Source: Rhodospirillaceae bacterium | GTDB taxonomy: Bacteria; Pseudomonadota; Alphaproteobacteria; Rhodospirillales; Casp-alpha2 | DNA: 64,000 bases | Assembly: GCA_018665815.1 (NCBI GenBank) | Contig: JABJBP010000021.1 | Coordinates: 1 to 64,000, forward strand | Direction of reading: 5' to 3' | Part shown: in pieces, positions 3,105 through 32,590 of the stretch | Position numbering within the stretch: the stretch's first letter is position 1 | Layout: every line of letters begins with the position of its first letter | Notes under the pieces: generated by a model | Databases searched by the model: none | Told to the model about the DNA's origin: nothing | What the model saw: only the letters and a program-made list of their open reading frames with translations | Position numbers and translations under genes: made by a program

Positions 3105-3412
3105 GACACCCAGTCGACGGCTGTGGGAGAGACCGGCAAACTTACGGGTTCAAGCCGGCGCCGAAGGAGCAACCGCCCCGGAAACTCTCAGGCACCCGGA
3201 CCGCAGTTCGATGGGACTCTGGAAAGCGGGTGAGATGACCATCGTTTTCGAATGAAGGCCGTCCCACTCCACCGAAGATGTAAGCCGGGCCGTTGAAGCA
3301 ATTGATCTCACGATCACCCAACAGCCAAAAAGCCGCCACCGTAAAGTATTTCGGGCAAATGGCGACTGGTGAATCTTTCAGGTGCCGAGACAGAGGGGGC
3401 GCTTCTTGCTTG
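3105..3412 (+). ncRNA. Tandem glycine riboswitch (two aptamers) upstream of gcvT
   Basis: The first aptamer (about 3112-3230) has the family's conserved elements in order: GGGAGAGAC, a P2 hairpin closed by CCGGC/GCCGG, GCCGAAGGAGCAA, AAACTCTCAGGCA and GGGACTCTGG. The second aptamer (about 3231-3405) shows CACCGAAGATGTAAGCC, then GGTGAATCTTTCAGGTGCC and GAGACAGAGGGG. It is longer than usual because about 75 bases separate the CCGAAG core from the TCTTTCAGG core, consistent with an extended P3 arm. Glycine binding typically switches on glycine cleavage genes. The gcvT start follows about 60 bases later, leaving room for an expression platform that masks the ribosome binding site at 3463-3467. 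Confidence 0.9.
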
Positions 3413-14768: not shown

Positions 14769-15635
14769 ATGATTATTTGCAGTTACAATATTCAGTACGG
14801 CACCGGCAAGGACGGTAAAATCGATCTTGCACGCATCGCTCAAGAGATCGGTGACGCCGACATCGTGGCGCTTCAGGAAGTCGAGCGATTTTTTTCCACT
14901 ACCGGCCTGATCGATCAGGCGGCTGAACTTGGCGCCCTGTTTCCGAAACACTTCTGGGTTTATGGCGGCGGCGTCAATTTAGATGCCAGTCTGGTCGCTG
15001 ATGATGGCACGGTGACAAACCGCCGGCGCCAGTTCGGCAATATGCTGCTGTCGAAATCGCCGATCCTTTCAAGCCGCAATCATTTGTTACCGAAGTTCGG
15101 CCTTGTTGATCAATTGGCCTTGCAGCGCTCGGCCCTGGAAGGCGTCATCAAGACGGAATTGCTGGGCGATATCCGCGTTCATTCTGTGCATCTCGGCCAC
15201 GCCTCGGCACTTGAGCGACGGGTTCAGATCGGCACGCTAAACAGAATTTTACGCGAATCACCCGGCCAAGGTGGTGGCGTCTCGGGCCGCCAGGCAGCCA
15301 AACATTGGACCGCCGACGGCCCCCTCATCGACATGCCGCGCGCCGCCATGTTCTTAGGCGATTTCAATCTGACCCCTCAAGATTCGGAATACGAATTGCT
15401 GGCCGGTCCCTCCGATCCGAAGTACGGACGCATCGTCCGCATGGACGGTCTTGCCGACGTCTGGACAACCTGCGGCAACGATGAAAACGCCGGGCCGACC
15501 TGCGGCTCCGAAAATGGACCCGTCCGCATCGACTACGGCTTCATGACGCCCGACCTAGCCGGTCAGGCTAAACGCATGTGGGTCGACACAGACGCTCAAG
15601 GCTCGGATCACCAGCCGATATTTATTGAGTTTTAA
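14769..15635 (+). CDS. Endonuclease/exonuclease/phosphatase (EEP) family protein
   Basis: 288 residues, cytoplasmic by lack of a signal peptide. Metal-dependent phosphodiesterase fold with its conserved blocks: ICSYNIQYGTG, DIVALQEVERFF, FLGDFNLTPQDSEY, PVRIDYGFM and the terminal QGSDHQPIFIEF with the catalytic Asp-His. Members cleave nucleic acids, inositol phosphates or sphingomyelin; nothing decides the substrate here. It lies 17 bases downstream of the PBP4 gene and ends 22 bases before the large inverted repeat. Confidence 0.85.
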   Translation: MIICSYNIQYGTGKDGKIDLARIAQEIGDADIVALQEVERFFSTTGLIDQAAELGALFPKHFWVYGGGVNLDASLVADDGTVTNRRRQFGNMLLSKSPILSSRNHLLPKFGLVDQLALQRSALEGVIKTELLGDIRVHSVHLGHASALERRVQIGTLNRILRESPGQGGGVSGRQAAKHWTADGPLIDMPRAAMFLGDFNLTPQDSEYELLAGPSDPKYGRIVRMDGLADVWTTCGNDENAGPTCGSENGPVRIDYGFMTPDLAGQAKRMWVDTDAQGSDHQPIFIEF

Positions 15636-15657
15636 ATAGGGGTGGTGGTTATTTGAA

Positions 15658-15964
15658 CTCCTCTTTTTTGAGCCCCTCTTTTTTGCCTCCCTCAGGCGCC
15701 GGGCGGTCACTCCGTTCCCTTGGCTCTCGCGCTTTCGCGCGGCGCGCCGTCACGCTTGCCTCCGAGCAAAGCTCGTCGGTTTCATAGCCAAACAACAATA
15801 GTTCAGTTGCCAGATATTCGTCGGTTGGATGTGCGTGTTACCGACGGGCGTTAGCCCGGAGGCAAGCGCAACACACGCCGGGCCTAATGGCCCGTAAGCC
15901 AAGGGAACGGAGTGACCGCCCGGCGCCTGAGGGAGGCAAAAAAGCGGGGCATAAAAAAGAGGAG
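15658..15964. repeat. 307-bp REPIN-like inverted repeat between convergent genes
   Basis: Two long arms in opposite orientation. The core arms, 15678-15725 and 15897-15944, are perfect 48-base reverse complements. Outside them, 15658-15677 pairs with 15945-15964 with three mismatches; both parts carry T6/A6 tracts. Inside, each arm has two small hairpins: GCGC-TTTC-GCGC and CGAGC-AAA-GCTCG on the left, CGGGCC-ATTA-GGCCCG and CGGGC-TAAC-GCCCG on the right, separated by the shared CGCTTGCCTCCG/CGGAGGCAAGCG block. Stems differ in sequence but stay paired. It fills the gap between the 3' ends of the EEP gene and flgG, so bidirectional termination is possible too. No ORF is present. Confidence 0.85.
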
Positions 15965-15971
15965 CTATTAA

Positions 15972-16748
15972 TTAACGTCGCGTCGCCATCATTTGATCCG
16001 CCGTTGTCAGTACTTTGGCATTCATGGAATACGCCCGCTCGGCCTTGATCAGCGCGGAGATTTCTTCGATGGCGTTAACGTTGGAGCTTTCAACGAAGCC
16101 CTGCATCACGGCACCGGAACCGCCGGCACCCGGGTTGACCTGATTAGCCGCCCCCGAGCGATCGGTCGCCAGGAATAAATTATTGCCGACAGCGTCCAGG
16201 CCACCCGGATTGGCGAACAAGGCCAACTGCACAGTGCCCGCGTTGACCGGCGTATCGGTGCCGGCGATTTTCGCCTGCACGGTCCCGCCAACACTAATCG
16301 TCACATCGGTCGTGTTTGGTGGAATGATGATGCCCGGCTGAATGATGAAACCATCATGTGAGACCAGCTGAGCATTTTCGTTCACTTGGAAACTGCCGTC
16401 GCGCGTATAGCCGATCTCGCCGTTCGGCAACTGCACCTGGAAAAAACCCTCACCCTGAATGGCCATGTCAAATTTGTTACCGGTTTGCTTGGCGGTGCCT
16501 GCTTCGTTGACCCTGTAAACGGCCGCCATTTTGACACCAAGCCCTGAATGCACACCACCGGGCACCAGATCACCCGATTTCGATGACACGCTATTGGCGC
16601 GCGGATTGAATTTGTAAATTAGGTCGTTGAATTCGGTGCGGCGTTTTTGGTAGCCGCTGGTGTTCATGTTGGCGAGGTTATTGGCGACCACCTCGGTGCG
16701 CCGTTGCTGGGCCATCATGCCTGATGCGGCAATTGATAACGCTTTCAT
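15972..16748 (-). CDS. flgG: Flagellar basal-body rod protein FlgG (distal rod)
   Basis: 258 residues from ATG 16746-16748; an upstream in-frame start adds 9 residues without support. FlgG builds the distal rod of the flagellum. The rod-family N-terminus ALSIAASGMMAQQRRTEVV and NNLANMNTSGYQKRR, the central MAIQGEGFFQVQLPNGEIGYTRDGSF, and the C-terminal VESSNVNAIEEISALIKAERAYSMNAK are diagnostic; length and C-terminus favour FlgG over FlgF. It stands alone: no other flagellar gene is in the window. A sigma-54 type promoter at 16829-16844 reads into it. Confidence 0.92.
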   Translation of the reverse strand: MKALSIAASGMMAQQRRTEVVANNLANMNTSGYQKRRTEFNDLIYKFNPRANSVSSKSGDLVPGGVHSGLGVKMAAVYRVNEAGTAKQTGNKFDMAIQGEGFFQVQLPNGEIGYTRDGSFQVNENAQLVSHDGFIIQPGIIIPPNTTDVTISVGGTVQAKIAGTDTPVNAGTVQLALFANPGGLDAVGNNLFLATDRSGAANQVNPGAGGSGAVMQGFVESSNVNAIEEISALIKAERAYSMNAKVLTTADQMMATRR

Positions 16749-16828
16749 GTTTCTGTTCCACTTTTCCCGTTCCAATACCCAAACCGAACCGGTGTTTTCA
16801 CCGTGCGCAATTTGGTTTCTTCTTTCAT

Positions 16829-32318: not shown

Positions 32319-32590
32319 CCCAGTCCATGACATTGGAAATTCCCGCCATTGAAGGGGCCCGGGTCCGCAAGCACTCAGTGCGTATTGCCGGCCATCGGAC
32401 CAGCGTTTCCATGGAAGATGCGTTCTGGAACGCGCTGGGGGAAATCGCCAAGGCGGAAAATCTGTCCGTAAACGAATTGGTTGCACGCATCGATGCAGCC
32501 CGCACCGGGGCGCTATCCAGCGCTGTGCGGGTTTATGTCTTAGAGAAATCCATCAGCGCGGCGCGGCGCGGTCATCTCGACGGCGGCTAA
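32315..32590 (+). CDS. Ribbon-helix-helix domain-containing protein
   Basis: 91 residues from ATG 32315 in the four-base overlap with the TfoX gene. The pattern KHSVRIAGHRTSVSMEDAFWNALGEIAKAENLSVNELVARIDAAR is the ribbon-helix-helix type found in many alphaproteobacterial proteins (beta strand, then two helices). A DNA-binding role is likely but not shown. Its end converges on the AsmA gene with a four-base overlap. Confidence 0.85.
   Translation: MTQSMTLEIPAIEGARVRKHSVRIAGHRTSVSMEDAFWNALGEIAKAENLSVNELVARIDAARTGALSSAVRVYVLEKSISAARRGHLDGG

Follow-up and report, generated by a model that had tools for sequence, protein, structure and literature searches.

The stretch of DNA analysed here, which we refer to as the window (64,000 nucleotides), contains a long inverted repeat at positions 15658–15964 that lies between two genes: an endonuclease/exonuclease/phosphatase family gene (Exo_endo_phos; 14769–15635, + strand), the stop codon of which is found 22 bp before the element, and a gene for a flagellar basal-body rod protein of the FlgE/F/G type (15972–16775, − strand), with its stop codon 7 bp after the element. 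Both genes converge on the element, which fills the gap between them save for these 22 and 7 bp. At the corresponding locus three of four congeners have 82–89 bp and no element, as judged across flanks that are only about 70–74% identical, and the fourth congener matched one of the two genes only. A second long convergent gap is present in the window (32319–32586; 268 bp according to our own gene calls), in which no inverted repeat was found, and an Rfam search identified a glycine riboswitch aptamer at 3114–3213 (+ strand; 65.9 bits, gathering score 32).

The composite element consists of two modules joined head to head together with T-rich/A-rich outer extensions, as delimited by the inverted repeat and the predicted fold. 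A preliminary description had reported perfect arms of 48 bases with near-matching extensions, and both hold: 15678–15725 is the exact reverse complement of 15897–15944, and an inverted-repeat search extends complementarity to arms of 75 nt (15658–15732/15890–15964; 69/75 positions, 92%). The RNA fold of 15658–15964 has a predicted energy of −226.5 kcal/mol (z −19.2) and the fold with DNA parameters a z-score of −18.8, with 0/100 shuffles as low in either case; the inverted repeat is thus real and far beyond chance. Given the site between convergent genes and the large G+C-rich hairpin, a bidirectional intrinsic terminator might be considered here, but the T-run lies on the 5′ side and the A-run on the 3′ side, which is the reverse of a hairpin followed by a U-tract. 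A scan of 15000–16700 for intrinsic terminators returned none (shuffle mean 2.5), albeit with loops of 3–8 nt only, so that the long hairpin is invisible to it. We rejected this candidate and consider a terminator of this type very improbable.

Each module is about 90 nt long, begins with CCCTCAGG and contains a 17-nt constant core and up to four hairpins, in the order CCCTCAGGCGCCGGGCG, H1, CTTGGCT, H2 and H3, followed in the genus of the window by H4. The arm A module (15689–15780, + strand) recurs in copies from the same genome and its outer part also in other genomes; it comprises the core block CCCTCAGGCGCCGGGCG (15689–15705, from an arm scan; exact core match 15690–15705), H1 (15706–15718; of the tandem-mismatch type here, as in arm B), H2 (15728–15741; CGCGC-TTTC-GCGCG) and H4 (15763–15775; CGAGC-AAA-GCTCG), all on the + strand. 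Following a central spacer (15781–15839) that is partly conserved in an alignment of the own-genome copies, the arm scan places the arm B module at 15840–15933 on the − strand, with H4 (15845–15858; CGGGC-GTTA-GCCCG), H2 (15879–15894; CGGGCC-TAAT-GGCCCG), H1 (15904–15916; GGAACGGAGTGAC, typed by its tandem G.A mismatches on the + strand) and the core block (15917–15933, from the arm scan; exact core match 15917–15932), all likewise on the − strand. The block common to both arms, CGCTTGCCTCCG, is present at 15753–15770/15851–15868 as described before. Two hairpins per arm had also been proposed, of which the H2 pair is found in the predicted RNA and DNA folds while H4 can be recognised as sequence only: in the minimum-energy fold, with RNA and DNA parameters alike, they pair with the opposite arm, although each H4 could form a hairpin of its own. 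The stems do differ between the arms, with the amendment that the differences are those of two arm types, A and B, that recur in other copies. H1 is identical in both window arms and of the type usual in arm B in both, and it is for this reason that the perfect arms of this copy are unusually long.

Searching the source genome (3.89 Mb in 157 contigs) at the DNA level gave 47 matches at E-values up to 10, many of which are chance matches or a single place matched on either strand. Among them are 11 copies that are full, near-full or truncated by a contig end (the window copy, L002–L006 and L008–L012), the truncated ones being L009 and L012, which show one arm each in the arm scan, as well as the shorter copies L013, L015, L022, L024 and L025, at about 75–91% identity. 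The element therefore belongs to a repeated family, as had been suspected. Nine copies are two-armed in the arm scan and every one of these pairs a type A arm (H2 CGCGC..GCGCG with H4 CGAGC..GCTCG or a TCGCAA variant) with a type B arm (H2 GGGCC..GGCCC with H4 CGGGC..GCCCG), small variants of both types occurring. The composites are accordingly A and B modules in opposite orientation, in agreement with the head-to-head joining proposed for the window arms, and the opposing possibility of arms found only here with private hairpin differences does not apply, since these differences recur elsewhere. About 1.2 kb from one copy, the sequence at L006 1–345 resembles the cspA thermoregulator, but at 57.6 bits this match stays below the gathering score of 78.

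The two arms also differ in H1. In the source genome, perfect H1 stems were found in six type A arms and tandem G.A mismatches in one, against none and seven, respectively, in type B arms (Fisher p 0.005; single arms included and 6/20 arms classed as "other" left out). The corresponding values in f6, a different family of the window's order represented by the genomes G086 and G073, were 20 and three for arm A and three and 32 for arm B (p 1e-9; 11/69 arms left out, nine "other" and two unassigned), where the loci of the two genomes are largely orthologous, so that the joint counts are not independent. Arms were assigned to A or B by H2/H4 or by interior motifs, and the f6 loci had been chosen by the core pattern or by likeness to one composite. 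The f6 composites measure about 180–190 bp and their arm interiors differ from those in the window genus; their three B arms with a perfect H1 (L195, L225 and L235) seem to be extra A-like units outside a B arm. In the congener G004 both composites pair one perfect-H1 arm with one G.A arm. Exceptions to the rule include the window copy and L198, in which both H1 are of the G.A form, and at one locus (L192/L231) the order of A and B is reversed. In a collection of 84,980 species, for which the search favours single modules, H1 was perfect in 134/173 cases among the matches listed, and close module pairs among these matches were arranged head to tail in 34/36 cases and head to head in 2/36. As the arms of both head-to-head pairs are alike (two G.A arms in L091, two perfect arms in L160), the A/B rule does not hold in that collection. 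In the genus of the window and in f6, the composites are head-to-head heterodimers in which H1 is usually perfect in arm A and of the tandem G.A type in arm B.

The arms are structured units in which pairing is kept through changes of the stems, as the preliminary description had argued from the two window arms alone. The 126 unique modules carry 80 distinct H1 sequences, and yet 412/436 H1 stem positions pair (94.5%; 405 Watson-Crick and seven G-T), compared to 61.3% in 1000 controls with half-swapped H1 (sd 2.2, maximum 67.4%). In a 46-sequence alignment the H1 covariation score was 0.519 versus 0.104 for shuffled alignments, with 0/500 shuffles reaching it and slid partners giving at most 0.071; the numbers of pairs with two-sided changes (4) and of pair types (14) in this alignment were not above those of the shuffles. 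In case of H2, a perfect stem, 6 bp or longer and anchored at CG, was present in 78/118 modules (shuffled mean 3.1, maximum 8), and parsing of the modules indicated that H3 varies between them. Recurrent mismatches in the 13-nt H1 are adjacent T.C and C.T, which read as tandem G.A on the other strand. From a MAFFT alignment, RNAalifold retrieved no more than H1 with its outer stem, as H2 exists in 6- and 7-bp forms. Both H2 appear as separate hairpins in 5/9 composite folds from the source genome. Four-way junctions at H1 were considered as well but are not put forward: in the predicted folds of 21 composites it is frequently the CTCCG/CGGAG centres of H1 that pair. Since G-T (7) and A-C (5) are about equally frequent among the 436 H1 stem positions, they lend no support to selection on an RNA strand over a role of the DNA; with transcription of both strands, such near equality would be expected whether the role is one of RNA or of DNA. 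The covariation itself could also arise from DNA-level hairpins or from template-switch repair of palindromes.

The sister species G086 and G073 are closer to each other than the congeners compared at the window locus, their flanks being 81–91% identical. For 13 of 20 G086 loci fetched, the loci fetched from G073 include a counterpart that bears modules, in some cases a single arm, and a further one (L225) is probably the fourteenth, its counterpart being cut at a contig end. Three of the remaining six were searched in G073: two show 5 and 6 bp there against 240 and 302 bp in G086, and for the third (L197) one flank only was found. The extra DNA exceeds the composite at both loci (240 against 185 bp and 302 against 184 bp, that is 55 and 118 bp more), such that the ends of an insertion are undefined, and no target-site duplication was seen at either. 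The difference at these two loci is unrooted, and a deletion in G073 is as possible as an insertion in G086. At one site (L227 in G086:C4 against L242 in G073:C195) the composite lies between a stop codon and the next ATG together with additional sequence that contains a new ribosome-binding-like site, while in G073 the same gap measures 6 bp beyond the shared flank; control signals of the downstream gene may have been introduced or displaced in this way. In another genus (G056:C53, L239) the locus matching the composite L189 has a shorter gap and a single arm instead of the composite.

Within 20 orthologous arms, 32/95 H1 positions have changed, 10 on one side and 22 on both; 14 of the 22 two-sided changes lead from one Watson-Crick pair to another and eight do not keep Watson-Crick pairing. 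The core blocks of the same arms differ at 23/408 bases (5.6%), the flanks at about 9–19%. The arms were compared by type, skipping seven (five without a single partner and two with more than one arm copy), and the pair L225/L233 was left out as its likeness exists only through a stretch shared with L190. These data bear on the proposal that the element is a neutral, decaying repeat without function, in which template switching and gene conversion in palindromes preserve the pairing mechanically. Such a process would suit the apparent block-wise exchange of H1 types between arms and orthologues (L222/L198 and L228/L237), the identity of both window H1 and the near absence of G-T intermediates. 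However, the orthologous core has changed less than the flanks, the difference between A and B persists where conversion would erase it, and the core is common to the class, even if its exactness was imposed by the search in the pattern-defined set; we regard a purely neutral repeat as unlikely.

In order to describe the distribution of the family, an exact outer-arm pattern was scanned over the genome collection of 84,980 species, in which the identity of the core block is therefore imposed by the search pattern. At least 119 stretches matched, and the 80 listed belong to Alphaproteobacteria or to metagenome bins titled only Proteobacteria, with Magnetospirillum, Azospirillum, Niveispirillum, Caenispirillum, Roseomonas, Erythrobacter and others among the genera of the matches listed. 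A core pattern (GCGCCGGGCGN{8,18}CTTGGCT) was then applied to genome samples and was present in 81/248 genomes from the order of the window, 31/289 from the class and 12/299 from the phylum, compared to 3/248, 9/289 and 4/299 for a backwards control pattern; outside the class it was found in 1/213 genomes, and that match lacks the hairpin. Many single matches in the class and phylum samples are without hairpin and probably due to chance, so the firm evidence comes from genomes with several hairpin-bearing copies. On this distribution the window was assigned to the Alphaproteobacteria. The highest copy number was 156 exact core-pattern matches in G046, where the places listed include at least two sequence classes of H1, one of them GGTTTC-TCC-GAAACC. 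Modules that are alike were also observed in head-to-tail tandem arrays repeating about every 90–115 bp (L030, G038:C110:205-672; L083, L138, L141 and L160).

The preliminary description had likened the element to REPIN doublets, which are tied to RAYT transposases (available text of PMC3116915). A search for Y1_Tnp (PF01797) gave 0 matches in the source genome, a draft of 98% completeness, with the positive control detected in 5/14, and among 20 genomes with the core pattern that were tested, the source genome included, 11 are without Y1_Tnp and nine possess it. A RAYT/IS200 enzyme as a requirement for the family was consequently rejected on account of these 11 genomes, and the element is not a REPIN in the strict sense; nor does the arm, which measures about 90 nt and has up to four hairpins, correspond to a 20–50 nt GTAG-tagged palindrome. 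No mobilising gene was found in this search, which covered the Y1_Tnp family only. The question of mobility can also be put in terms of a non-autonomous, MITE-like element, the hairpins of which would serve as single-stranded DNA sites for a transposase acting in trans, with the 3′ position being merely a tolerated insertion site. In line with this, the window element possesses the terminal inverted repeats of a MITE, and the family has many copies, a patchy distribution, tandem arrays (L083, L088, L100, L138, L141 and L160), presence/absence between sister species, stems that are almost purely Watson-Crick (405 against seven G-T of 436), as would suit a DNA structure, and Y1_Tnp in 9/20 copy-bearing genomes. 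On the other hand, Y1_Tnp is missing from 11/20 of these genomes, the own genome among them, no target-site duplication was seen at the two loci (a weak test, as the extra DNA extends beyond the composite) and at least 13/20 G086 loci are also occupied in G073, which implies that turnover is slow. We consider such an element a possible, if less probable, explanation.

Of the 37 composites for which the gene context was callable, 25 are found in convergent and the other 12 in tandem gaps, all of them thus downstream of genes. In the source genome 8/9 composites with both flanks callable are convergent, the tandem one being L006, while only 10/60 adjacent gene pairs in the window are convergent, the pair around the element included (binomial p 5e-6 for 8/9); in f6 (n=28) 17 composites are convergent, 11 tandem and none divergent. 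L006 and the G086 copy L227 sit just before a start codon. For 142 single modules elsewhere the contexts are <M< 32, >M> 31, >M< 27 and <M> 13, with 19 inside a called ORF and 20 at an edge; with 13/142 between divergent genes, there is no confinement of the module itself to 3′ ends. In several cases the module stops about 9 nt short of a called start codon, which had suggested a 5′ leader or riboswitch; this candidate was rejected on the mixed contexts of the 142 modules. Genes were called with an ORF/codon caller of our own making, and a Pfam check of 20 neighbour proteins of own-genome copies left two without a family and one with a match below the cut-off only; no common function was apparent among these proteins (Pfam matches for 18/20). 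E. coli BIMEs are known to bind gyrase, and one could envisage a structural site at the DNA level, such as a cruciform or a binding site for gyrase or a nucleoid protein, that handles supercoils between convergent genes. The convergent preference, the very stable DNA fold and the absence of a strand bias in wobble positions would all be compatible with this, yet 12/37 composites lie in tandem gaps and single modules in all gene contexts, and a site of this kind appears quite unlikely to us, somewhat more so than neutral decay.

The absence of a named family, as stated in the preliminary description, was borne out in that no Rfam match in the window at gathering scores overlaps an element, and no match overlapping an element was obtained at E-values up to 1 for nine own-genome and eight other loci. 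Literature searches by topic returned papers on REP, BIME, REPIN and MITE sequences, none of which describes the element in the text available, few subscription journals being covered; the element is likewise not described in the available part of PMC12306157. The two longest core strings gave 0 occurrences in paper full text among the matches listed, none of which concerns bacterial repeats by title. This bacterial repeat family is seemingly unnamed and widely scattered.

Several known systems nevertheless resemble it in part, going by the available text of the papers cited. The BIME/REP sequences of enterobacteria share two unlike palindromic units in opposite orientation, a mostly intergenic position that is often downstream of genes, and units able to fold singly or together (PMC8266576, PMC3733652), and E. 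coli y-z mosaics are described in PMC8266576. REPs are 20–50 nt long and GTAG-tagged (PMC8266576), whereas the window unit measures about 90 nt, has a 17-nt core and lacks both the GTAG tag and a Y1 transposase. Alternating unlike palindromic units downstream of genes are therefore found here as in BIMEs, but the units are not REPs. REPINs are similar in being dispersed inverted doublets with a spacer that fold as one hairpin and also occur as singles (PMC3116915), although the RAYT link belongs to the REPIN and is not a feature of the window family as a whole (11/20 genomes Y1-free). The CGTC-tagged REPs are similar in that they are Alphaproteobacteria-rich, mostly head-to-head dimers, often heterodimers, and without a dedicated transposase; they differ in having a single stem of 8–9 bp that nearly always begins with A/T and an unpaired tail that is mostly CCA (PMC3733652), where the module described here has several hairpins and another constant sequence. 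In the window, CGTC is present after H4 (GCTCGTCGG), partly within the stem, and inspection by eye revealed neither an A/T-first stem nor a CCA tail. Dimers of some REP families are exclusively or mostly heterodimers, and heterodimers of short REPs have been suggested to be protected from palindrome-cleaving enzymes (both in the available text of PMC3733652), an argument similar to the one we make for the unlike arms. By description, the modular hairpin plan and the constant core distinguish the present family from ERIC, NEMIS, other bacterial MITEs and the RIME of rhizobia. These are intergenic palindromic repeats of 100–300 bp, some of them transcribed with their neighbours. The best reading of these comparisons is that the family works most like a BIME, while RAYT, GTAG and unit size separate it from REP and REPIN.

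With a probability of about one in two, we interpret the window feature as a copy of an interspersed multi-hairpin repeat family of Alphaproteobacteria that acts in a BIME-like manner at mRNA 3′ ends. This interpretation builds on computed observations (family membership, kept pairing, the A+B rule, the position downstream of genes and presence/absence between sister species), from which we infer the role. The composite would become part of the mRNA 3′ end of one gene, or of both where the genes converge, and its RNA would form a large bipartite hairpin that blocks 3′-to-5′ decay and limits read-through into the opposite gene. Copies may arise, convert, invert and disappear by recombination or copying, through the host machinery or a mobilising enzyme in trans, for which a RAYT would not be needed, and the unlike arms would limit perfect pairing from arm to arm. 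More tentatively, the family could represent a class found throughout the Alphaproteobacteria that combines a fixed core with freely changing, pairing hairpins, is dispersed without Y1 enzymes and has two-part lineages serving as a convergent 3′ end; if true, this would constitute a category of its own beside REP and BIME.

Large head-to-head palindromes are usually unstable, and the element recurs in spite of this, often retaining its sites from one species to another, with unlike arms that would limit perfect pairing between them. The module is a structured sequence without an Rfam match, the core pattern of which is present in 81/248 genomes of the order, and the family thus offers a natural system of many copies in which palindrome tolerance, the building of convergent 3′ ends and the RAYT-free spread of REP-like repeats come together.
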